The translations under genes and the position numbers were made by a program. From the NCBI GenBank assembly GCA_017616015.1, contig JAFZYY010000030.1, positions 1 through 64,000 on the forward strand: a stretch of 64,000 nucleotides of DNA, in the 5' to 3' direction. Each line of letters begins with the position of its first letter. Position 1 is the stretch's first letter. The DNA comes from Alphaproteobacteria bacterium (GTDB taxonomy: Bacteria > Pseudomonadota > Alphaproteobacteria > CAAGCB01 > CAG-977). This document shows, piece after piece, positions 5,717-32,430 of the stretch. The notes beneath the pieces are model-generated. The model worked only from the letters and a program-made list of their open reading frames with translations. It had not been told where the DNA came from and made no database searches.

Positions 5717-7174
5717 ATGGCACAACAACAAACTGCAACAAAAAAACTGGGACTAATCGCTCTGGCCAGCGTTGTCATCAGCTCCATGATCGGCGGCGGC
5801 ATTTACAGTCTGCCGCAAAACATGGCGGCGGGCGCATCGGTCGGCGCCGTCCTGATAGCCTGGCTGATCACAGGCGTCGGCATGTATTTTCTGGCCAATT
5901 CCTTCCGCATTCTATCAGATGTAAAACCCAACCTTACAGCGGGGATTTATATGTATGCCCGCGAAGGCTTCGGCCCTTTTATGGGCTTTACGATCGGGTG
6001 GGGATACTGGCTTTGCCAGATTTTCGGCAACGTCGGCTATGCCGTTATCACGATGGACGCGCTGAACTACTTTTTTCCGCCGTATTTTCAGGGCGGCAAC
6101 AACCTTTATTCCATCATCGGCGGTTCCGTTTTGATCTGGTTTTTTAACTTCATCGTCTTGCGCGGCGTTCAACAGGCCAGCTTTATCAACACGATCGCGA
6201 CCATATTCAAGATTATCCCCCTGTTCCTGTTCATTCTGATTTTGCTTTTCGTCTTTAAAGCGCACCTGTTCGAAACGGATTTCTGGGGCAATCTGATCAG
6301 TCACGGACACGCGTCTTTAGGTTCCGTACCCGATCAGATCAAAAGCACAATGCTGGTCACCTTGTGGTCGTTCATCGGTATCGAAGGCGCTGTCGTTTTG
6401 TCCGATAAAGCCGAAAACAAAGCCGAGGTCGGGCAAGCGACTTTCATCGGATTTTTAGGGTGTCTGCTGATTTACGTTTTGCTTTCCGTTCTGCCTTACG
6501 GATTTATGAGCCAGGCCGAACTGGCCGCCGTTCCCAATCCGTCCACGGCGGGCGTGTTGGAAGCCGTCGTCGGCAAATGGGGCAGTTGGCTGATGAACAC
6601 CGGATTACTGATCGCCGTTCTGGCCAGTTGGCTGGCGTGGACGATGATCACGGCGGAAATTCCTTTCGCCGCGGCTCAAAACGGCACGTTCCCGAAAGTT
6701 TTTGCCGAAGAGAACGAACATAAATCCCCCGCTGTTTCCCTGTGGGTGACCAGCGGATTGATGCAAGCGGCCATTTTAATGGTTTATTTTTCCAACAACG
6801 CGTGGAACACGATGCTGTCGATTACGGGCGTTATGGTACTGCCCGCTTATCTGTCCAGTATTGCTTATTTGTGGAAGCTGTGCGAAGACGGCGAATATCC
6901 GCAAAATGCGTCAGTACCCCGTTCGGCGGCTCTGATTTGCTCCATTCTGGGATCAATTTACGCTCTGTGGCTGATCTACGCGGCGGGATTGAAATACATG
7001 CTGATGGCTGTTTTGTTCCTGACCGTCGGCATTCCTGTTTTCATTTGGTCCAGACGGGAAAACAATCCGCAGGAAAAAGCTTTCACCCACCGAGAACTGT
7101 GGTTCGCGTGCCTAATGGTTGTAATATCTTTAATTACAATATTCCTTTTCTATCGGGGAATCCTATCGGCATAA
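5717..7174 (+). CDS. aaxC: Arginine/agmatine antiporter, APC family (AaxC-like)
   Basis: This 485-residue inner-membrane protein has about twelve hydrophobic helices. The N-terminal segment [16 protein letters not shown] (about 22-37) is the unwound helix-1 substrate motif of basic amino-acid antiporters (G[SG]G-type). [15 protein letters not shown] follows in helix 3. The length equals chlamydial AaxC and the ArcD/AdiC-type APA exchangers. Standing 60 bp after a pyruvoyl arginine decarboxylase, it most likely imports arginine in exchange for agmatine. Arginine/ornithine exchange is the main alternative. A strong terminator follows. Confidence 0.85.
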
Positions 7175-7188
7175 GAATCTCTCAAAAT

Positions 7189-7221
7189 AAAAAACGGCGA
7201 AGAAATCTTCGCCGTTTTTTT
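7189..7221 (+). terminator. Terminator after the antiporter gene
   Basis: ACGGCGAAGA and TCTTCGCCGT form a 10-bp stem with a two-base loop core, preceded by A and followed by seven T. Confidence 0.9.
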
Positions 7222-7283
7222 GCTTTACGATGCGGGGGCGGAAGTGATAACCTTAGTTAAGTATTTCATTTTCAGAGGATTTT

Positions 7284-8363
7284 ATGGCTCTTTTACTTTT
7301 TCTGGTCGCTATGACGGTGGGCATTTCTTTTTTATGCTCTCTTATGGAAGCGTCCCTGCTGTCGATTACCCCCAGTTATATCGCCCGTCTTGAAGAAGAT
7401 TCTCCGCAACTTTATAAAAAAATTTCTTACCTAAAGGCTCACATCGACAAGCCTTTGGCCGCGATTTTAATGCTGAACACGATTGCGAACACGGCCGGCG
7501 CGGCCTGCATCGGCGCACAGGTAGCCTCTGTTTTCGGATCGCAGTTCATCGCTCTGGCCTCCGCGATAATGACTGTTCTGATTCTGACGTGCAGCGAGAT
7601 CATTCCCAAGACGATCGGCGCGACCTACTGGCAAAAGCTGATCAGCTTTTTATGTTTTATGCTGAATCTCCTGCTGTTTGTTCTGAAGCCTTTTTTGAAA
7701 TTGCTTGAAATCATCACGGCTTTGATTACGCCTAAAAACACACCGAAAACGGATATTCGAGAAGAAATCAAGGCGCTGACCAAAATGGGACGCACGGAAA
7801 ATTTTCTGGACGACGATGAATACAACATGATCTGCAACACGCTGAATCTGGAAGAAATCAAAGTCAAAGATTTGCTGACGCCCCGTAACGTCTGCGCCAC
7901 GGTCATCGCCGGCATTTCCATCGGAGAATTTATCGAAACGGCAACTCAGCATTCTTTTTCGCGTTATCCCGTGATGAAAAACGAAGACGAAGAAGTCTTT
8001 ATCGGCTATATCCATAAGTCTGATATGTTAGGCAAAGATCCGACTTTGACGATTAATAATTCGATCCGCCCTTTATTAGAAATCGCTTCGACATCGAACG
8101 TCGACTATGTCTTTACGGAAATGTTGCGGACGCATAACCATATCGGCGTCGTTTACGACGAGCTCGGCACCTGGCTGGGCATTGTCACGATGGAGGACGT
8201 TCTGGAAACGATATTGGGACAGGAAATCCTTGACGAAACGGACAAAGTCATTGATATGCGCACTTACGCCAAGCTGATTTGGTCGAACAAAAAAGAAGCG
8301 GCGATGAAAGATAAAAAAGCAAAAATCAATATCGTCGCGCCGCAACAACCTACGGATAGCTGA
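7284..8363 (+). CDS. CNNM (DUF21) transmembrane protein with CBS-domain pair
   Basis: This 359-residue inner-membrane protein belongs to the CNNM/CorB family (formerly 'hemolysin'), linked to Mg2+ and other divalent-cation export. Hydrophobic helices lie near residues 3-23, 58-80, 85-105 and 113-140, with SEIIPKTIG (about 103-111) as the signature loop. Two CBS motifs follow (about 185-305), including FSRYPVMKN and GVVYDELGTWLGIVTMEDVLE. The C-terminal CorC/HlyC transporter-associated domain is missing; the protein ends with a short basic tail. It overlaps the convergent Sel1-SPOR gene by 14 bp. Confidence 0.85.
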   Translation: MALLLFLVAMTVGISFLCSLMEASLLSITPSYIARLEEDSPQLYKKISYLKAHIDKPLAAILMLNTIANTAGAACIGAQVASVFGSQFIALASAIMTVLILTCSEIIPKTIGATYWQKLISFLCFMLNLLLFVLKPFLKLLEIITALITPKNTPKTDIREEIKALTKMGRTENFLDDDEYNMICNTLNLEEIKVKDLLTPRNVCATVIAGISIGEFIETATQHSFSRYPVMKNEDEEVFIGYIHKSDMLGKDPTLTINNSIRPLLEIASTSNVDYVFTEMLRTHNHIGVVYDELGTWLGIVTMEDVLETILGQEILDETDKVIDMRTYAKLIWSNKKEAAMKDKKAKINIVAPQQPTDS

Positions 8364-24451: not shown

Positions 24452-24661
24452 CTACAAACACTTCCGGTAAACAATATTGTTTTTATCGATTTGCCGGATT
24501 GTTTCCGGCGTATCCCGATCATAATCAGGATACACCGGTAAATAAATGTCGCAAAAATCACCGTTTAAACGTATCGTGCAACCTCCTGACAACAGCAGGA
24601 TCGTCCAAACAAGTCCGAAGCAAACGCGCCTGCGCTGTCGCATTTGATTTTTGTCTTTCAT
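24452..24661 (-). CDS. Outer-membrane spanin-like lipoprotein (Rz1-like)
   Basis: This 69-residue protein has a hydrophobic N-terminal segment followed by cysteine in LLLSGGCTIRLN (about 22-33), which resembles a lipobox, though with GG before the Cys. Its frame overlaps the 3' part of the preceding gene out of register by about 100 bp. That is the classic nested arrangement of Rz/Rz1 spanins, which fuse inner and outer membranes at the end of lysis. It is last in the phage-derived operon. An internal ATG at 24643 is a possible start. Confidence 0.62.
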   Translation of the reverse strand: MKDKNQMRQRRRVCFGLVWTILLLSGGCTIRLNGDFCDIYLPVYPDYDRDTPETIRQIDKNNIVYRKCL

Positions 24662-24767
24662 GTTCTATTTTTTCCTTTGCCCGCCCCAAATCGTACGCCG
24701 TGTAAAAAATCACCGCGATTAAGCTGACGCCGATAATGCCCGCAAAAATCAATGTACTAACCGGCAT
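24558..24767 (-). CDS. Inner-membrane spanin-like protein (Rz-like)
   Basis: This 69-residue protein begins with a transmembrane helix (about 4-25), followed by a charged helical stretch (DLGRAKEKIEHERQKSNATA) and a short C-terminus with one cysteine. The size is small for an inner spanin, but the anchor plus periplasmic coiled coil plus overlapping lipoprotein gene fit. I use the ATG at 24767, which overlaps the end of the preceding membrane-protein gene and has AGGA upstream. A start at 24806 is in frame. Confidence 0.62.
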   Translation of the reverse strand: MPVSTLIFAGIIGVSLIAVIFYTAYDLGRAKEKIEHERQKSNATAQARLLRTCLDDPAVVRRLHDTFKR

Positions 24768-24966
24768 TATCGGTTTTATCCTGTTTGTTTTCCTGAATTT
24801 TGGCATTTACGATTGAAACAAAATCCAACACTTTCATGATTTTTGCCAAAAAAGCGTCATCTTTTTGCGTAGGCGTCGCCTTTACGATAATCGAAGCCGC
24901 CGCCACAATCGTACCAAACCAAAAAACAGCTTGCTCGATATAATTTGTAAAAACTTCCAATGTCAT
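24757..24966 (-). CDS. Holin-like small membrane protein
   Basis: This 69-residue protein has one clear hydrophobic helix (about 13-30, AVFWFGTIVAAASIIVKA). An amphipathic segment and a charged tail (QENKQDKTDN) follow. Its ATG overlaps the endolysin stop (ATGA). Position in the lysis cassette and topology suggest a holin or holin-like protein; the family is not certain. A terminator-like hairpin sits just upstream, inside the endolysin 3' end. Confidence 0.6.
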   Translation of the reverse strand: MTLEVFTNYIEQAVFWFGTIVAAASIIVKATPTQKDDAFLAKIMKVLDFVSIVNAKIQENKQDKTDNAG

Positions 24967-25436
24967 TTTTTCTTCCTTTCATAAAAAAAGGAGCGTTTCC
25001 GCTCCCTCTTGTTTTCAAACAACGCCGCTTCAGCCTGCCTGCGCCGCGATAATCCGTAACACGGTTTGCCATTGACATATATCCAACGCATCAGTTGTTT
25101 CGGCACCTGCTCATAATTGCCCGCATTCAACTCCTTCAGCAAAGTCGAGCGCTGAAAAGCATAAGCGCCGATGTTATACGCAAAACTGACTAAAGCGTCC
25201 CGCTGATATTCCTTCAAAGGTACTTTAACCAGCATGTCGACAGCCGTTTCTACTGTTTTCAGGTCTTGTATCAACAATTCTTCGGCTTGTTCTTCACTGA
25301 CGCCGCAGACATAGCTTTCATTCGGTTTTAAAACATGGCCAAAGCCTATTGTCCGTTTTCCGGCAACGCACGTATATTCCAACGGGGAATATCCTTCAAA
25401 CGTTTTTATTGCCTTCAGACCTTTTTCGGAAATCAT
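24963..25436 (-). CDS. Phage endolysin, GH24 lysozyme
   Basis: This 157-residue muramidase of the T4-lysozyme family shows catalytic Glu14 (TFEGY). Cys23 replaces the usual Asp, and Thr29 follows in KRTIGFGH, so the spacing E-8-C-5-T is that of the family; Cys variants of this site are common. NIGAYAFQRSTLLK and RRRQAEAALF lie further on. The C-terminus is a basic tail (KRERKRSFFYERKKK). There is no signal peptide. The start at 25436 overlaps the stop of the preceding 54-codon gene. It degrades host peptidoglycan for release. Confidence 0.9.
   Translation of the reverse strand: MISEKGLKAIKTFEGYSPLEYTCVAGKRTIGFGHVLKPNESYVCGVSEEQAEELLIQDLKTVETAVDMLVKVPLKEYQRDALVSFAYNIGAYAFQRSTLLKELNAGNYEQVPKQLMRWIYVNGKPCYGLSRRRQAEAALFENKRERKRSFFYERKKK
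24983..25005 (-). terminator. Terminator-like hairpin inside the endolysin 3' end
   Basis: On the minus strand GGAGCG-GAAA-CGCTCC (25005-24990) is followed by seven T. It lies within the last codons of the endolysin gene, upstream of the holin-like and spanin genes. Confidence 0.7.
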
Positions 25437-25597
25437 TTGATATTCCCCGGCCGAGACAACAACAAATAAATTTTCAGACACATGTAAATCAGCGTTGCGA
25501 TTCCGATCAGACAACCGACCCATTCGTTCAGAATCGGCAGCCATGCGGGCGCGGTCAATCCGGCGGAAATAGTTACGCCTTCTTTGACGTTATTCAT
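25433..25597 (-). CDS. Small phage membrane protein (54 aa, holin candidate)
   Basis: This 54-residue open frame starts at an ATG preceded by a strong AGGAGG site (complement of about 25603-25610). It has one transmembrane helix (about 27-47, VGCLIGIATLIYMCLKIYLLL) and a short polar C-terminus. Its TGA overlaps the endolysin ATG, giving tight coupling. Size, single helix and position just before the endolysin suggest a holin or a related lysis-control protein. No family is assigned. Confidence 0.72.
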   Translation of the reverse strand: MNNVKEGVTISAGLTAPAWLPILNEWVGCLIGIATLIYMCLKIYLLLSRPGNIK

Positions 25598-25610
25598 CTT
25601 TTCCTCCTCT

Positions 25611-26021
25611 TTAAAGCCCTAAGTTCATCAGATCCGAAAACAGCCCGACAGAATAGGAAAAAGCCTTATCACGCCTGTTTTTTCGTTCGTTTGCGGCTTG
25701 TTTTCTTAATGCCTGCGCGCTTTCCTGGGCTTGTTTTTGTTTGTCGTATATGTCCCGGATATTTTTCAAATCTTCGGAGAGAAATGCGTCATTAAACGAA
25801 GAAAGATCTATTCCCGAAGCCCCGGCTTTTGACAAAATTTTACCGGCATCTTCCGCATTCTGACGCTTCATCTGGCGAATTTCATCATCACTTTCCCGCA
25901 AAAGAGAATTCGCCTGATGAAAATATGCTTTTTGCGCTTCTTTGGAATCGCGCCACTCCTTCAGTAAATTAAAAGAGTTTTTTGAAGCCGATAAAGCTGC
26001 GTTTGATTGATTATTAGCCAT
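25611..26021 (-). CDS. Putative internal virion protein (coiled-coil, gp14-like)
   Basis: This 136-residue, mostly helical, Gln/Lys/Ala-rich protein starts ANNQSNAALSASKNSFNLL. It has extended heptad-like stretches and ends in a weakly hydrophobic SVGLFSDLMNLGL segment. In short-tailed phages a protein of this type and size lies after the tail tube genes and serves as an internal core or ejection protein. I infer that role from position and composition; sequence similarity cannot be checked here. Confidence 0.55.
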   Translation of the reverse strand: MANNQSNAALSASKNSFNLLKEWRDSKEAQKAYFHQANSLLRESDDEIRQMKRQNAEDAGKILSKAGASGIDLSSFNDAFLSEDLKNIRDIYDKQKQAQESAQALRKQAANERKNRRDKAFSYSVGLFSDLMNLGL

Positions 26022-26038
26022 TTTAGTTCTCCTTAACC

Positions 26039-28042
26039 TTACACTTTGTTTGCTGACACCACGGGAAAAATTCCCAACACCGTTAACGGCAGAGGTTGAT
26101 TTTGCTCAATCCGGATCGAAGACACCCGATCCCATTTTCCGCGAAAAGCCACTTTTTTATCGCCGGAAAACAAAGCCGGCGGAGTGTTCATCACATCGCC
26201 CGTATTGCGGAAACTTTGCGCTTCCACGTCGTTATCGCAGCCGATTGAAAAGCCGAGCGTTTTATACAGACGCAACACCAATCCGGAAACGCGCTTTTTA
26301 GCTTCTTCGGAAACGCCGTTTTGCCCGATGCCTGTTAAAGGCATCGTTTGCATCACCGATGAAAACGGTAATCCGACATGAATGACGCTTGCCGGCGTAT
26401 CCAACAAAATCTGACCGTTAGTCACGACTTTTTCCGTTTGAACGGCTCCGTCGGCCAAAACGGCAACCGTTTGCCCTTCCAGATGATCCAAACCGGCCAC
26501 CCCCGAAACAGCCGTTCCGTGATAAGATAATCCGCTGTCCACAAAGAAGCATTCCTTTGTATCCTCGGATTCTTCATCAATGCCTTTCTCCATAACCTCG
26601 ATATAACGCTTTGTTATTCCATTAATTTCCCGACGAACCAATAAAAACAATTCGTCATATCCGCCGTTTTCGGACGGAACCGTAGCAACGCTTTCAACGA
26701 AGCCTTCGGCCAATTCGTGACAATGCCACGCCTGAACGGATTCCGCGGCTTCATACGTCAATCCGACCAATCCGCCGTTATTCAAAGCGCACCAAACAAT
26801 CGACGAAGGCTCCTGCTGCAACGCCATTTCTTTAATACCGCTGTATGTCATATGCGGAGCCAACATCGTTAAATCTTTTGCGATGTAATCATCGGTATTA
26901 CTTTCATACATGAAAGCACGCAGTTTTCGGCCATAATGCTGCACGAACAAAGTCGTACTGCCGACTTTAAGCGGAGCCACGTTTTCACTGCCGTACGTTG
27001 AATGCCGTTGCGCTTTGATGCTCATCGGAATTGATCCTTCGCCGCCGACCGTTTCCAAAGTAAAATCCGCGCCGACAGTCCCGATTGCCAAAGCTCTGCC
27101 GGAAGACAGCCAACACACGTCGTTGATTTGATCCGACGATAACTCGTAACCGTAACCGCACTCTGCCGTTACGGAAGCGTCCGTCGCCGACGGAGAAAAA
27201 ATCTCATATTGTCCTGTTTTAGATCCGTAAACGCCGTTTCCTTTTCCCAAAATTAATCTTTGTTCGAAAAACGTTACGGCGGACGGATATCCGGTTGTTC
27301 CGGAAAAAACGCCCAAACGCCATGCTTTGGAGGCCGTCGTATTCATGAAAGGATAGTTTGCCAATACCGTCGCCTGCACATTTGTCGAACTGGTATAAGC
27401 CGTAATTTTTGCCGCGCCCCACTGCACATTCGGATTAGAAGCCTGCATAATACGCACTTGTCTGCCAACATCGGTCGCGGAAAACACGGCTGCTGAAGCC
27501 GTAATCGTAATATTTCCCTGCGTTGCGGAAGGCGTTAAAGAAATATCGCCGGTATGTATCGGCAAATAAGGTCCGTCAACCAACTCAACCTCCGCCGTAC
27601 GCCAATCCGTTTGCCCGTAACGAGTAATCGTTCTTAAAGGATAAGACGGGTGAGCGATATAAACGACATCTCCCGACTGGGAAAAATACAGCTTATCCAA
27701 ATCTTCCGCCGCATACGGAACGGTTATTTCGATCGGATCGTCATTTTGATCAACGATAGGATTGCGATGATAGAAAAAACGCACATAATGATCGCCAAAT
27801 TCCAGTAAATAAGACAATACGGTCGAATATTGAAAAGCAAACAGCCTTGTTTTCTTGGCGGAATTTTTAACTTCCGCGACAAAACGCGTTCCGCCGCGCC
27901 GCGACACGGGCCCCTGCACGGAAGGAATGAAATTCTTTAAAACCTTGCACGCGCCTTTATATTCTTCCGTATCGATACGCCCGCTCATTAATTCGGAAAT
28001 TTCGCCGACGTTAAATCGAACTAAACCGGTTGTGTATGACAT
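26039..28042 (-). CDS. Large phage tail/stabilisation protein (tail tubular B position)
   Basis: This 667-residue protein of a family common in podoviruses begins SYTTGLVRFNVGEIS. The conserved block SGRIDTEEYKGACKVL (about 20-35) continues into NFIPSVQGPVSRRGGTRFV, followed by a beta-rich propeller-like body. It lies directly after tail tubular A, so it likely forms the nozzle or stabilises the portal complex. The ATG at 28042 overlaps the upstream stop (TAATG); an in-frame codon seven residues earlier is less likely. The frame is intact over 2 kb with no sign of decay. Confidence 0.8.
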   Translation of the reverse strand: MSYTTGLVRFNVGEISELMSGRIDTEEYKGACKVLKNFIPSVQGPVSRRGGTRFVAEVKNSAKKTRLFAFQYSTVLSYLLEFGDHYVRFFYHRNPIVDQNDDPIEITVPYAAEDLDKLYFSQSGDVVYIAHPSYPLRTITRYGQTDWRTAEVELVDGPYLPIHTGDISLTPSATQGNITITASAAVFSATDVGRQVRIMQASNPNVQWGAAKITAYTSSTNVQATVLANYPFMNTTASKAWRLGVFSGTTGYPSAVTFFEQRLILGKGNGVYGSKTGQYEIFSPSATDASVTAECGYGYELSSDQINDVCWLSSGRALAIGTVGADFTLETVGGEGSIPMSIKAQRHSTYGSENVAPLKVGSTTLFVQHYGRKLRAFMYESNTDDYIAKDLTMLAPHMTYSGIKEMALQQEPSSIVWCALNNGGLVGLTYEAAESVQAWHCHELAEGFVESVATVPSENGGYDELFLLVRREINGITKRYIEVMEKGIDEESEDTKECFFVDSGLSYHGTAVSGVAGLDHLEGQTVAVLADGAVQTEKVVTNGQILLDTPASVIHVGLPFSSVMQTMPLTGIGQNGVSEEAKKRVSGLVLRLYKTLGFSIGCDNDVEAQSFRNTGDVMNTPPALFSGDKKVAFRGKWDRVSSIRIEQNQPLPLTVLGIFPVVSANKV

Positions 28043-28599
28043 TACGCTCTGGCCTCCACCCACCCTTGCGGCACGAAAACGTCCTGCGCACCTTCCATTG
28101 CGGAAGCCGTTTTTGCCTGTTGAACAAACTGTTGATATTCTTTCATCAAACTGTCGCGCAAAGAAACGGAAGCCGTTAAAGGAACCGCCAGCTCCGCCGC
28201 CAGGCGCAGAGCAAACGCTTCGACAAACATCGGATCAAACACGCTTGAATCTTCCACGCGGGCGATGCCAATAAAACGGCAAACGTTCGAATCCGTCAAA
28301 AGACATTGACCTTCGACCTGATAACGCTGATTTTCTTCCATTTTCCAAACGCGCAGACAGTCGGAAGGCAAAGAAAACTGGTATTCGTATCCGAACAAAG
28401 GCTTGTCCCGCAAAGGCGCGAGGACATAACGCTTCAAAGCAAACCTCCACGGATAGGAACGCAAGACAAAATCGCGCGTGTCGGCATACAAAGCTTTGCA
28501 GTATCGGGCGGATTTTGTGTTATCGTCCAAAGACAGAATTATCAGCTCGTCTCCGATTTTGGATAAAGCGCGATTACAAACGGCAACAATCGATGTCAT
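28042..28599 (-). CDS. Tail tubular protein A (T7 gp11-like)
   Basis: This 185-residue head-tail connector of short-tailed phages starts TSIVAVCNRALSKIGDE, as in the family. Conserved RSYPWRFALKRY (about 47-58) and YQFSLPSDCLRVW (about 72-84) follow. The protein forms the gatekeeper ring under the portal. It is preceded by a hairpin after the capsid gene and by AAGGAG before its ATG, and is coupled to the large tail protein gene. Confidence 0.87.
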   Translation of the reverse strand: MTSIVAVCNRALSKIGDELIILSLDDNTKSARYCKALYADTRDFVLRSYPWRFALKRYVLAPLRDKPLFGYEYQFSLPSDCLRVWKMEENQRYQVEGQCLLTDSNVCRFIGIARVEDSSVFDPMFVEAFALRLAAELAVPLTASVSLRDSLMKEYQQFVQQAKTASAMEGAQDVFVPQGWVEARA

Positions 28600-28613
28600 T
28601 TTTTTCTCCTTTT

Positions 28614-28648
28614 AAAAGGAAAGCGGCGGAAGAACTTTTCCGCCGCTT
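28614..28648 (-). terminator. Hairpin after the capsid gene
   Basis: AAGCGGCGGAA (28621-28631) pairs perfectly with TTCCGCCGCTT (28638-28648), an 11-bp stem. On the minus strand it is followed by TCCTTTT, a weak U tract, so it may be a leaky terminator or 3' stabiliser of capsid mRNA. In the plus direction it is followed by CCGTTTTTTTT, which would stop antisense transcripts. Confidence 0.7.
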
Positions 28649-28657
28649 CCGTTTTTT

Positions 28658-29557
28658 TTAAGATTCTTTACAGTTGATTTTAACGACCAGTTCTTCCTGC
28701 ATACGCACGGCGCCGATAGACATTTCGTAATAGACCTGCGTCGCGAAACACTTATCGTCACGTTCTGTGATTTTGCCGATAATATCCTGACCGATACCCA
28801 ATTTGATGCCGTCGGTCTGGAAAGCCAGACAGGAACGACCGATGACCGTATTATTGGAAGTAACGTCGGGCAGAATCAAATTACCGTTTCCGTCTTTGGC
28901 GTTCAGCTGAATGAACTTGAAGCCCATAAAGGTATCCAGCTCTCCCTGCACCAAAGCTTTGGCGGAAGCATAATCAGACGAAGTCACTTTTGTTTCGCTC
29001 AACAAATCGTCCAACTGCTGCGCGGACAGAACGATAACGCGGCCTTCGGAAGGCACATCACACGCATCAAACATGCGCTTGACTTCGCGCAATTTGTCAA
29101 AAGTGAATTTATACGTGCAGCTGCTGTCAACGACCTGGGTCGCGGGCAGCGCCACCGAAGTCGCGCCGGTTTCGCCCGTGTACGCCGTTCCGAAAGCGGC
29201 GGTTACGATCGCTTCGTCAATTGCACGTCCCATTGCCCAAGCGGCAGCATTCGCGTAATCGCTGGTCGGATCGATCAACATTCTGACCTTATCGTCGTTA
29301 TCGATCAAATCCGCCCAATGATAAGTGTCCAACGTCAGACGGCGACGTTTATGCGGCGTATCGTAACGCGGCGTATCGGCATGGCGCGTCGTTTTCTTGA
29401 CGGCAGCGACCTGCCCGATCTGATCAATGAACATATTTTTGCCACGCACGCTTTCATAGCCGACAAAGTCGCGCAGTTTGGAACCTTTCTGCTGAACCAG
29501 AGCCTGAATATTGGCGCTGTACTGATTGACAAACGAAGTTGTAATTTGTGTACTCAT
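28658..29557 (-). CDS. Major capsid protein
   Basis: This 299-residue protein matches podovirus-type HK97-fold capsids in organisation. An N-terminal region (STQITTSFVNQYSANIQALVQQKG) leads to DTPHKRRRLTLDTYHWADLIDNDDKVRM (about 65-92), a strong signature of this family. MGRAIDEAIVTAAFG follows, and the C-terminal half contains QTDGIKLGIGQDI. There is no N-terminal prohead protease signature, and scaffolding is encoded separately upstream. The gene is flanked on both sides by terminator-like hairpins. AGAGGAAA precedes the ATG. Confidence 0.88.
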   Translation of the reverse strand: MSTQITTSFVNQYSANIQALVQQKGSKLRDFVGYESVRGKNMFIDQIGQVAAVKKTTRHADTPRYDTPHKRRRLTLDTYHWADLIDNDDKVRMLIDPTSDYANAAAWAMGRAIDEAIVTAAFGTAYTGETGATSVALPATQVVDSSCTYKFTFDKLREVKRMFDACDVPSEGRVIVLSAQQLDDLLSETKVTSSDYASAKALVQGELDTFMGFKFIQLNAKDGNGNLILPDVTSNNTVIGRSCLAFQTDGIKLGIGQDIIGKITERDDKCFATQVYYEMSIGAVRMQEELVVKINCKES

Positions 29558-29586
29558 TTATTTTCCTCTTTAAGTTATTAAGACAT

Positions 29587-29616
29587 AAAAAAAAGCCCCG
29601 TTTATCAAAACGGAGC
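29587..29616 (-). terminator. Strong intrinsic terminator between scaffold and capsid genes
   Basis: On the minus strand GCTCCGTTT-TGAT-AAACGGGGC (29616-29595) forms a 9-bp stem followed by eight T (29594-29587). It stands 30 bp before the capsid start, so capsid expression needs read-through or antitermination. Confidence 0.85.
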
Positions 29617-29643
29617 ACCGAAACACGCTTGAAAAAAGCGGGC

Positions 29644-30216
29644 TTATTCTTCGCCGAACAGATGTTTTCTCAAACGGTATACCTGCTGAACGGTCGCGTC
29701 GTGTTCGGGGTGTCTGGCCTGCATATACGCCGGCTCTGCCATCAAACGGGCGATTTCAGCCTTGATTTTTTCTTCCGAAGAAAGAACGGAAGCTTTTTCG
29801 CCGATCAAGCCTCTGTCTTCGCTTGCGGCGTCCGCCAAATTCATCAGGAAAGAAAGGATTTCGCGGCAATTTCCGATTCCGCTTTTTTTCAGGAAAGCGA
29901 CCAACTCGTCGCCGCCGTATTTCAGAATCAGATCATTTGCGGCTTTTTTACGAGCTTCAAGACTGTTTCCGTAAACGCCGCGCAAATACTCTTCGGTTTC
30001 CGAACAATACTCCGCCGCGTCCCGATTCAAATCTTCAACGAAACTCATTGCGCCCTGAACCAACCAATTCCAAATGCCCTGCGCCTGTTCTTCGGACAAC
30101 GCCAAATCAGACGCCAGAGTCTGAAATTCGCCGACGGTTTCCTCGTCAATGATTTTGTTGATTAAATCCTGCGCCATTTCTTCTTTTAACGGCACAGACT
30201 CTGTGTTGTTATTCAT
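29644..30216 (-). CDS. Putative capsid scaffolding protein
   Basis: This acidic, helix-rich 190-residue protein lies immediately upstream of the capsid gene, the usual position of phage scaffolds. Glu/Ala-rich helices dominate, and the C-terminal part is MAEPAYMQARHPEHDATVQQVYRLRKHLFGEE-like with basic residues that could bind capsid subunits. That 'paYmd..hP.H...v..v..ly' ending is typical of scaffold proteins in this phage group. The ATG at 30216 overlaps the previous gene by eight bases and has AAGGAA upstream; the longer frame to 30267 is not supported. Confidence 0.75.
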   Translation of the reverse strand: MNNNTESVPLKEEMAQDLINKIIDEETVGEFQTLASDLALSEEQAQGIWNWLVQGAMSFVEDLNRDAAEYCSETEEYLRGVYGNSLEARKKAANDLILKYGGDELVAFLKKSGIGNCREILSFLMNLADAASEDRGLIGEKASVLSSEEKIKAEIARLMAEPAYMQARHPEHDATVQQVYRLRKHLFGEE

Positions 30217-30499
30217 CTTTGTTCCTTTCAGTTTCTTGCAACAACTCGACAAGCTTGCGCTCATCACACGCGGACATTTTTACAATGTCCAAAAAAGCCG
30301 CCCGCTTTCCGTCATAGAAAGCGCTGGCGGCGGAAAACCCGTTTGGATTTGAAACGTCCGTCACGGGCGACAGCATATGGCATTTTCCAGCCAGATCCTG
30401 TAAGATTAAAAGCCCGTCTTCCGATGAAAAAACGGTTTTATAGGCTTGAATCAGCTGAAGAGCTTTGCCTGCTTTTTTTCTTTTAAACGCGTCAAGCAT
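30209..30499 (-). CDS. Bbp19-like small phage protein
   Basis: This 96-residue protein resembles the phage Bbp19 domain family of BPP-1-like podoviruses. It has YKTVFSSEDGLLILQDLAGKCHM (about 19-41), then FYDGKRAAFLDIVKM (about 61-75). Members are encoded between portal and scaffold or capsid genes; the exact role is unknown. The start at 30499 has GGAGG six bases upstream and lies inside the end of the portal gene. The longer open frame to 30697 is a shadow of the portal gene. Confidence 0.75.
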   Translation of the reverse strand: MLDAFKRKKAGKALQLIQAYKTVFSSEDGLLILQDLAGKCHMLSPVTDVSNPNGFSAASAFYDGKRAAFLDIVKMSACDERKLVELLQETERNKDE

Positions 30500-31985
30500 T
30501 TGTTTCCTCCGCCGTTTTTTCTTTGAAAAACAGAGCGCTGACACCGTACATTTCGCCGATTTTCCGGATTGCTTCAGGCGCATTAAACACAGCGGCGGCT
30601 TCGGGCTGAATCTGCAAAAACCCTCCGGCCAATTCCAAAGTCCGCATAACGGCCTGCGCCTGCAAATGCTTCTGTGCCAAAGAAAGCGGAGAAACATACT
30701 CTACGCGCACGTCCTGAAAATCCAAATCCGGCGGCAAAACCATTTTGCCGTGCCGCACCAACAGCCCGAAAACGCGAGTCATCATCGGTCCCAACAGTTC
30801 AGTCTGAAGCCTGCCGAACACGGGCCCCATCAGCCGCATTTTTTCTTCCGCACGCTGTAAAACCTCGGTTGCCGTCATCTGAACATTTTCCGTATTCATC
30901 AAACGATCGTTATAGAAGGCGGCGCGAATTCGCTGACGAATTTCGTTCATAATTTCCAATCCGATACTGGAATTCGCTCCGCTGACAAAAGTTTTCGGAG
31001 CCTCGCCCGTATAACGGATAATTCCGCCCGGAACAGTCGCCGCCGGAGAAAACTGGTCATCGTCTCTGACCAGTAAAGGCGGTCTGTTTGCCAGCTGCGC
31101 GGCAATGATTGTTTCTTTCATCATTTCCTGCAGCATTTTAATGTCGGGCAAAACTGAAATCGCCGGAGAACGCCCGTACACCTCGGCGCAGGCTTTACTC
31201 CACCGCGTAACGAACAAAGGCATTTCCTCAAACCCGCCGGAAAACAGAATCGTTCTTTCGTCTTTCAGAATATAAACGGAAGAAACAGGCTTTTGAAAAG
31301 CGCTGCCGTTTTCAAACAAATCGTTCGGAAAGACGGCATGAATGATTTCAAATTCTCTCTGTGCCTGCGTTCCCGATTCATAAGCGGCCAGCATATTCTC
31401 GGAAACGGCGGATTTTCCCCATGTCTGAACTATTTTTTCCAAAGACATCTTAAAGACGCGATAGATCCTATCGACCTGCCCCGCCGCATTTTCTTCTAAA
31501 AACAACTCGCCCAGGAAACGCGACTGAAAAAGCAGGGAATCTTTTTTCTCGTCCCAACCGACATACAATCCGGCCGTGCCTAAAACGGCCAAATCCAAAT
31601 ACACTTCATGAATATTTGTCGCAAAACCGGCATTCGGACGAACAATTTCGTCGGCGAGGATTTGCTCCGCTTCAACCAACCATTCGGCTGTCTGCGGCGT
31701 TTTTTTAGAATCGGCCACTGTCAAAGAAAACCATTTGCCGGCCGGATTTGTCATCAACCCGTGCAAACCGGAAGCTAAAAGTTCGGCCGCATTGACGGCG
31801 GTTGTTTCAAACAACTTACGCCCCCGCTTTGCCCCCTGAGCCTGCGCGACTGTAAAATCGGCTTTACGCGGCAGAACCAATTCGGAAACTTCCTGCCATA
31901 ATTGCTCGAAATTCATACGCCGCGATTTCAGTTCGTCCGTTCTTTGAATGATTCTGTCGGCCAAAGAATAAACATTTGCTCTCAT
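30492..31985 (-). CDS. Portal (head-tail connector) protein
   Basis: This 497-residue podovirus-type portal has characteristic blocks: RRMNFEQLWQEVSELVLPRKADF (about 22-44), ASGLHGLMTNPAGKWFSL (about 71-88), the YGRSPAISVLPDIKMLQEM region (about 270), and NVQMTATEVLQRAEEKMRLMGPVFGRLQ (about 370-397). It forms the dodecameric DNA gate. The start ATG at 31985 shares a base with the stop of the upstream gene (TGATG). It is full length and undisrupted. No terminase gene precedes it, which is unusual because terminase-portal linkage is the norm. Confidence 0.9.
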   Translation of the reverse strand: MRANVYSLADRIIQRTDELKSRRMNFEQLWQEVSELVLPRKADFTVAQAQGAKRGRKLFETTAVNAAELLASGLHGLMTNPAGKWFSLTVADSKKTPQTAEWLVEAEQILADEIVRPNAGFATNIHEVYLDLAVLGTAGLYVGWDEKKDSLLFQSRFLGELFLEENAAGQVDRIYRVFKMSLEKIVQTWGKSAVSENMLAAYESGTQAQREFEIIHAVFPNDLFENGSAFQKPVSSVYILKDERTILFSGGFEEMPLFVTRWSKACAEVYGRSPAISVLPDIKMLQEMMKETIIAAQLANRPPLLVRDDDQFSPAATVPGGIIRYTGEAPKTFVSGANSSIGLEIMNEIRQRIRAAFYNDRLMNTENVQMTATEVLQRAEEKMRLMGPVFGRLQTELLGPMMTRVFGLLVRHGKMVLPPDLDFQDVRVEYVSPLSLAQKHLQAQAVMRTLELAGGFLQIQPEAAAVFNAPEAIRKIGEMYGVSALFFKEKTAEETNA

Positions 31986-32308
31986 CACAACCCCAACAGA
32001 TTTTTCTGACCGCCCAATCCGATTTCGTCATTGTTGCCCAAAAGCCCCGCAAAAATGACGTTAGTCCGCTTTGATACTCTGCGTTTATGATCCAATTCGT
32101 TTTGAAAATCCTGTTCCGCCGTATTAATTTCAGCCTGTTGAGCGGCTTCTTTTCTTGCTGCGGATTCAGCTTTGGACTGCTGATGACTTTTCTCCACATT
32201 TTTGCCCAACGCATATGCGGAATACATCATATTAACCGCATTCATCGGGTCGCTTAGGGCTTTGCCTATTTGATTAGTTGCTTTTTCAACTTCTTTTATA
32301 AATCCCAT
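31985..32308 (-). CDS. Small phage protein with C-terminal LLG motif
   Basis: This 107-residue protein is mainly helical and rich in Ala, Glu and Lys. It ends in an Arg-rich to glycine-rich tail (VSKRTNVIFAGLLG...QKNLLGL) of the type seen in many small phage proteins encoded beside portal genes. Function unknown. It is the first gene of the operon, 70-80 bp after the predicted transcription start. A terminator-like hairpin lies in the leader between. Confidence 0.6.
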   Translation of the reverse strand: MGFIKEVEKATNQIGKALSDPMNAVNMMYSAYALGKNVEKSHQQSKAESAARKEAAQQAEINTAEQDFQNELDHKRRVSKRTNVIFAGLLGNNDEIGLGGQKNLLGL

Positions 32309-32325: not shown

Positions 32326-32352
32326 AAAAAAAGCGCTCCTCGACGGGAACGC
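32326..32352 (-). terminator. Leader terminator of the phage-derived operon
   Basis: On the minus strand GCGTTCC-CGTCGA-GGAGCGC (32352-32333) forms a 7-bp stem with one G-U pair, followed by seven T. It lies between the promoter and the first gene, which suggests attenuation or antitermination. Confidence 0.72.
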
Positions 32353-32381
32353 CTTCATTTTCAAGACACAAAACCAAGTGT

Positions 32382-32430
32382 AATAACAATATGTCATAAT
32401 ATTTTTTAAATGTCAACACATTTTGTTATT
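32382..32430 (-). promoter_or_regulatory. Promoter and candidate operator of the phage-derived operon
   Basis: On the minus strand a perfect TTGACA (32411-32416) and CATATT (32388-32393) are 17 bp apart. The inverted repeat AATAACAA (32382-32389) and TTGTTATT (32423-32430) brackets the whole promoter, as an operator pair might. No repressor gene is adjacent. Confidence 0.65.

Follow-up and report, generated by a model that had tools for sequence, protein, structure and literature searches.

What is a compact set of genes for a phage head, a short tail and lysis doing between housekeeping-type genes of an alphaproteobacterium? The set lies at positions 24452-32308, on the minus strand, of a 64,000-nucleotide stretch (hereafter the window) comprising positions 1 to 64,000 of contig JAFZYY010000030.1 in assembly GCA_017616015.1. 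A sequence-only reading had described thirteen intact podovirus-type genes here without terminase, integrase, polymerase or tail fibre, and had proposed either a domesticated podovirus-like gene transfer agent (GTA) or a particle operon that depends on packaging functions from other loci, with a decaying prophage as the main alternative. We compared 12 genomes of one alphaproteobacterial family, including that of the window (G000, 2.09 Mb); a sheep rumen origin is stated for one of the relatives, and the rumen origin of the others was taken from isolate names. Our results indicate that the operon very probably belongs to a vertically inherited podovirus-derived GTA of this rumen family, split over at least four loci, which in G000 are found at C15 (0.02-0.03 and 0.22 Mb) and C25 (33.6 and 62.3 kb). 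Gene content, conservation, purifying selection, a shared operator with common leaders, and co-divergence of the operon with the large terminase (TerL) were established.

Gene content and conservation of the operon

Gene calls and profile matches upheld the description of a compact 7.9-kb block of 13 co-directional, intact genes of short-tailed-phage type, and no terminase, integrase, polymerase or fibre was among the matches listed for the operon proteins. The likely starts of five genes were corrected (lysozyme 25436, Rz 24764, tail tubular B 28042, Bbp19 30499 and scaffold 30216). The genes, with their lengths in amino acids (aa) where given, are as follows:

31985-32308, minus: gp7.3-like adsorption/tail assembly protein, 107 aa, first gene of the operon; weak phrog_1320 match (0.0053), C-terminal GLGGQKNLLGL, same place in 8 relatives
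30492-31988, minus: portal (head-tail connector); PF12236, 1.8e-120
30209-30499, minus: Bbp19-like protein; PF25181, 4.6e-11
29644-30216, minus: scaffold-like protein, homologue of HTVC010P gp07; phrog_3742, 3.3e-18
28658-29557, minus: major capsid protein; PF19821, 4e-82; 82-96% identity across 8 relatives
28042-28599, minus: tail tubular protein A; phrog_394, 2e-57
26039-28042, minus: tail tubular protein B (large tail/nozzle protein); phrog_376, 4.6e-195
25611-26021, minus: internal-virion-like protein; phrog_418, 4e-7
25433-25597, minus: conserved protein of 54 aa, possibly a holin/membrane protein; the G010 prophage has a homologue
24963-25436, minus: endolysin (phage lysozyme); PF00959, 5.5e-41
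24757-24966, minus: holin-like small protein, conserved; phrog_9685, 3.1e-11 (a family of unassigned function)
24558-24764, minus: Rz-like inner-membrane spanin, conserved; phrog_1026, 0.0028
24452-24661, minus: Rz1-like spanin, overlapping Rz in a different frame, conserved; phrog_1275, 1.8e-4

The housekeeping-type flanks of the earlier description were also recovered, with a Sel1-repeat gene and, in addition, a dsbD-like gene on one side and tgt on the other. The G+C content of the operon is that of its neighbourhood, and the sole tRNA of the window is 22 kb away.

A search of the relatives for the same operon at the tgt flank found it, with the same gene order, in eight further species (G001, G002, G003, G005, G006, G007, G008 and G011), and the operon-bearing species span three genera of the family. 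Wherever the contig was long enough, the operon sat between tgt and sel1/dsbD. The main structural proteins showed 65-97% aa identity between these species. The ratios of nonsynonymous to synonymous substitution rates (dN/dS) between G000 and G006 were low, namely 0.026 for the capsid, 0.043 for tail tubular A, 0.077 for the portal, 0.041 for TerL and 0.091 for the small terminase (TerS), as compared with 0.034 for tgt and 0.037 for an RND pump as housekeeping references. Frames were intact in all operon-bearing species; apparent premature stops in TerL (G006) and the lysozyme (G003) were artefacts of over-extended reading frames. In G004 both the operon and tgt were absent from the assembly, and because tgt is missing as well, this gap is probably technical. 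The operon and TerL distances correlated closely (r=0.95, Mantel p=0.0002), and in a FastTree phylogeny the capsids of the system grouped in a single clade (support 0.98), whose internal branches were short and those of the neighbouring phages long. Short-branched clades beside long phage branches have been reported for recognised GTA families (PMC9662315). As would be expected of a GTA, the phage-derived structural genes are held in the host genome, co-diverge with the host and are under purifying selection.

These data bear directly on the prophage alternative, according to which a decaying or cryptic podovirus prophage had its terminase and fibre genes scattered by rearrangement. Every protein of the operon has phage homology, and true podovirus-type prophages do exist in the family (G001, G003 and G010), as such a history would predict. 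Nevertheless, we regard it as highly improbable, being contradicted by conservation over three genera with identical flanks, by intact frames in all species with housekeeping-like dN/dS, and by the operator common to loci on separate contigs (see below). Neither integrase nor replication genes were found beside the operon in the window gene calls and profile matches; the location did not vary, and no att ends were encountered, no dedicated att-site search having been made. One-locus conservation across genera and purifying selection instead support the earlier suggestion of a domesticated podovirus-like GTA.

Further linked podovirus-type prophages were noted at L041 (G001:C8, 76-83 kb) and L042 (G003:C60). 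PF12236-type portals occurred in 40 of 116 sampled alphaproteobacterial genomes, several of them small (0.9-1.9 Mb). The IMG/VR contig L045 (IMGVR_UViG_3300012344_000385), listed there as a virus, carries the Bbp19-scaffold-capsid-tubular A-B genes of the present type, with a capsid of 78% identity that falls inside the GTA clade; this contig probably represents a fragment of a bacterial GTA. In several relatives a gene of the DUF6782 (PF20573) putative metallopeptidase family lies between tgt and the operon (L032:6146-7309, L031:13552-14637 and L038:10187-11203), with none there in the window genome; it was rejected as a component of the system, the family having 17-35 copies per genome (G000-G008 and G013).

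Terminase genes, common operator and fibre cassettes

The earlier conjecture that packaging functions are encoded elsewhere was borne out, in that terL, terS and the fibre genes occupy separate loci, conserved in place or dispersed, with control sequences in common. A search of the rest of the genome for an orphan terminase and fibres located TerL with phrog_2 at C25:33.6 kb (L100:9614-10924), together with a T7-type fibre gene (see below). A preliminary result of no terminase in the genome, based on zero matches to the PF03237 model, was a false negative; this model also missed the TerL of the nearest phage. In G000, TerL adjoins a YbaK-like gene and an RND-efflux operon, with mraZ-mraW-ftsL-ftsI nearby. 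The protein is 77-94% identical in nine further species, and the gene neighbours the RND operon and/or ybaK in eight of these, the G011 copy lying elsewhere with its leader retained. The ATPase and nuclease motifs (HRRAGKDS, GVVFSEY, WDLG, IFPHD and HAADAFRY) are kept, with the sole exception of G007, where the contig ends before the first motif. The nearest TerL relatives were those of the G010 prophage (57%) and, in the phage collection, one of 51% identity.

The operon promoter contains a palindromic operator, and has the following elements:

32383-32429, minus: operon promoter, near-invariant in nine genomes and common to terL, terS and fibre genes
32415-32429, minus: distal operator ATAACAAAATGTGTT
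32411-32416, minus: -35 element TTGACA
32383-32396, minus: operator TGACATATTGTTAT over the predicted -10

The operon promoters of the nine genomes have ATAACAAAATGTG-TTGACA-N-TGACATATTGTTAT in common, and the TerL promoters share TTGAC-N-TAACAWAWTGTGAT. The palindromic pattern TRACAWAWTGTKAT occurred at three sites in the 2.09-Mb genome, namely those of the operon, TerL and a fibre gene, and a stricter composite pattern with the -35 box returned the same three sites. Across the 12 genomes, 26 of 34 composite matches fell on genes of the system by our own count; seven were set aside as lying inside two conserved coding sequences (ACAACAGGTTGTGAT and others), as was one more operator-pattern match in G008.

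The relatives also have the operator in front of a conserved gene of ~100 aa, which in most genomes is found at a distance of 2.5 to 28 kb from TerL. Its counterpart in G000 (C25:62349-62660; L249:18349-18660) encodes 103 aa and has a paired operator and no terminator hairpin. A tblastn search of this protein against phages gave eight weak matches, six of them annotated as terminase small subunit, the best being Salmonella phage PMBT28 (E 8e-4). With hhalign, its match to the 202-aa PMBT28 TerS (96% probability, E 4e-9) was confined to residues 113-191 of the latter; the N-terminal half of the phage TerS has no counterpart in the 103-aa protein. The DNA-binding helix-turn-helix of phage small terminases lies in that N-terminal half. 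Sherlock et al. proposed that GTA-type small terminases be defined by loss of the DNA-binding N-terminus (PMC6854486). The identification of the 103-aa protein as TerS is well supported by the PMBT28 profile match and the annotated weak matches, and is based on remote homology; a search of solved structures with the TerS profile gave nothing convincing. The 103-aa protein is thus short and without an N-terminal DNA-binding domain, a GTA feature of moderate strength here, with one remote homologue.

An element of the phage-satellite or helper-dependent kind, with capsids of its own and packaging itself with the help of a resident phage, would resemble the system in having a particle operon without adjacent terminase, and related prophages do occur in some species. 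We find this reading extremely improbable, since the system has its own TerL and TerS, conserved even in genomes that yielded no second related portal or capsid, and occupies a fixed chromosomal site with its parts on different contigs. The integrase, primase or replication genes and portal-adjacent terminase of cfPICI-type elements were not found beside the operon.

The operator pattern, defined on two loci, the operon and TerL, predicted the missing fibre. The third operator site in G000 is the promoter of a 316-aa gene (L140:7288-8238, minus), whose product begins with a T7-type tail-fibre domain (PF03906, 8.5e-6; phrog_1640, 2.9e-36), and which is followed by a 122-aa companion gene (L140:6919-7287, minus). 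In ten genomes, excluding the G010 prophage, 1-6 fibre-like matches per genome were found at scattered sites; in most cases another gene, of about 91-129 aa, starts no more than a few tens of bases downstream, and nearly all the fibre genes have the shared leader. Mean pairwise identity was 70-83% over fibre residues 1-120 and 18-39% over the remainder, a pattern that may reflect a constant attachment domain joined to exchangeable receptor-binding domains. Broken copies with the leader retained (G002c, L191/L157 at G002:C9; G004c, L186/L162 at G004:C37; remnants of 56 and 130 aa) suggest turnover of fibre cassettes.

Diverse fibres and lysis genes would equally suit a particle domesticated for another purpose, such as a podovirus-type bacteriocin or lysate release, in which DNA packaging is incidental, and GTA-like transfer is predicted here from gene content. 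However, a killing particle would need no packaging motor, whereas here TerL, its ATPase and nuclease motifs intact, is conserved together with TerS under a shared operator, and portal, scaffold and capsid are all retained. We therefore consider this purpose unlikely.

Leader terminators and regulation

At the operon, TerL and fibre loci a common order was observed, in which the promoter is followed by a hairpin with a T-run and then by the gene, the hairpin lying mostly ~17-27 bases before the start codon. Within the operon, the following hairpins were found:

32326-32353, minus: leader terminator, hairpin plus 7 T, in the promoter-to-first-gene interval; 9/9 genomes
29587-29616, minus: internal terminator-like hairpin plus T8 before the capsid gene; similar hairpins in relatives
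28614-28650, minus: internal hairpin plus T-run before the tail tubular A gene; similar hairpins in relatives

By a strict rule, leader terminators were present at 9/9 operons, 7/9 TerL genes and 21/25 fibre genes. When the rule was applied to sampled DNA, there were 15 matches among 169 open reading frames, 11 of which belonged to the system, including the internal capsid and tubular A hairpins. The stem directly abuts 5-9 T at system loci. The operon hairpin showed compensatory changes at five of eight pairs, with 98.6% of cells paired, a value reached in 0 of 500 shuffles. RNAalifold returned no structure for 21 fibre leaders, whose hairpins of unequal length were misaligned, and the fibre hairpins were taken from single-sequence folds.

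This leader arrangement suggests control by antitermination, since a terminator placed downstream of a promoter is reasonable when expression depends on an antiterminator or on conditional read-through. Such leader logic has a precedent in another GTA, that of Caulobacter, where GafY and GafZ exert control through antitermination (PMC11150451). A competing view of control has nearly an even chance in our estimation, namely that the hairpins serve as constitutive attenuators or 5' stabilisers and that switching is left to the operator alone, through, for example, a Cro/CI-type repressor encoded close to a 77-aa operator-bearing gene. The shared palindrome does cover the predicted -10, and in G001, G003 and G005 an XRE-type repressor gene (PF12844, 4e-15) is found at a distance of 1.5-1.9 kb from an operator-bearing gene of 77-81 aa. 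On the other hand, a stem running into 5-9 T, maintained through compensatory change, is present at the operon, TerL and fibre loci and recurs inside the operon, and antitermination is already known from Caulobacter. G007 has a similar operator-bearing small gene. These operator-led genes of 69-81 aa (L243:4018-4254; L244, about 7092-7325, minus; L245, about 6150-6395, minus; L247:788-1000) have as neighbours an XRE repressor-like gene and an outer-membrane-protein-like gene (L243-L245) and a conserved membrane-protein gene (all four); they are candidate regulators of the system, with no counterpart located in the window genome.

We propose that the window operon makes the head, short tail and lysis proteins, and that the unlinked TerL, with an unlinked small TerS devoid of the DNA-binding N-terminus, would fill the heads with host DNA without choice of sequence. 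Dispersed fibre cassettes, each with a constant particle-binding N-terminus, a variable receptor-binding C-terminus and a companion gene, would set the recipients, and the common palindromic operator would co-ordinate the loci. Because the operon, terL and fibre genes carry leader terminators, their full expression probably needs antitermination or regulated read-through. Particles would be released by the lysis genes of the operon itself. Particle assembly, random packaging, transfer and the antitermination step are what we infer from these genes. In its full form, as an independently domesticated podovirus GTA whose scattered core, TerL, TerS and swappable fibre cassettes are one regulon, governed by operator and promoter-terminator leaders with antitermination, and which exports DNA to a recipient range set by multiple fibres, the proposal is one that we favour with some reserve. 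The particle, motor, reduced TerS, fibre and lysis genes, kept over three genera in scattered positions, define a GTA as far as is possible short of experiment, and the genes are dispersed with no autonomous replication or integration module beside the operon.

Several points weigh against this account. G009 and G010, of a sister genus, have tgt without the operon, and in G009 TerL, capsid and fibre are all absent together. The sequence-only reading had named frameshifts, an assembly split and variable presence as grounds for abandoning it; at the species level, the first two were not found, and presence varied in these two genomes only. Neither of the large T7-type ejection proteins, gp15 and gp16, was found in the operon. 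The TerS assignment comes from one remote match and the annotation of weaker ones, and the operator is predicted from sequence. The host genomes are metagenome assemblies, the hosts themselves being uncultured so far as could be seen, and the particle, its DNA cargo and its transfer are predicted from the genes.

Comparison with known systems

GTAs are thought to have arisen a few times, and nearly all well-studied ones are long-tailed. A podovirus-like GTA (FpGTA) was described as recently as 2026, its host being a Gram-positive bacterium of the gut. The present system resembles FpGTA in that structural and packaging genes of phage origin are spread over more than one operon, in its lysis and fibre genes and in its conservation within a lineage. 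FpGTA, whose particles were seen, differs in its Gram-positive host and in having terS, terL, portal, scaffold and capsid in one operon, whereas here, compared by gene arrangement only, the head operon is linked to neither terL nor terS, and terL, terS and the several fibre copies are each separate, with operator and leader in common.

RcGTA-like GTAs (Rhodogtaviriformidae) and CcGTA are likewise alphaproteobacterial and multi-locus. Their particles are long-tailed and siphovirus-like, whereas the present capsid is of PF19821 type and the tail of T7 type. The TerS of RcGTA-like GTAs is also short and without a DNA-binding domain, but their terS lies immediately upstream of terL (PMC6854486); CcGTA uses an activator and an antiterminator to pass terminators (PMC11150451). 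BaGTA (Bartogtaviriformidae) is similar in being alphaproteobacterial, of a phage origin separate from that of RcGTA, and co-evolved with its hosts; its genes lie in one ~79 kb region near a virus-derived replication origin, and long tails are reported (PMC9662315). No such gene clustering was seen in the present system. It is probably independent of the known alphaproteobacterial GTA families.

The nearest sequence relatives found for TerL and capsid are phages. Pelagibacter podoviruses of the HTVC010P kind, the nearest capsid relatives in the phage collection (~55% identical), have a similar order of portal, Bbp19-like, scaffold, capsid and tail tubular A and B genes, but are 35-kb phages with terL beside the portal, a fibre of their own and many further genes. 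The nearest linked relative found is the G010 prophage (C54, 86-110 kb; L130, L131), with TerL of 57%, capsid of 52-54% and fibre N-terminus of 38-44% identity and with Rz/Rz1 and 54-aa homologues; in contrast, all its genes are linked, a replication-helicase-like gene lies just upstream, and its fibre gene is without the shared leader.

Among open-licence papers, none was found on a GTA in rumen Alphaproteobacteria or with dispersed fibre cassettes. The operator shows that parts of a split GTA can be found genome-wide through a common control sequence, and the dispersed fibre cassettes raise the question of whether the recipient range of a GTA is diversified. If our reading is correct, this would be a second short-tailed GTA, in rumen Alphaproteobacteria, and the recurrence of the same solutions as in other GTAs, a TerS stripped of DNA recognition and terminators in the transcription path, would argue for repeatable rules of domestication.

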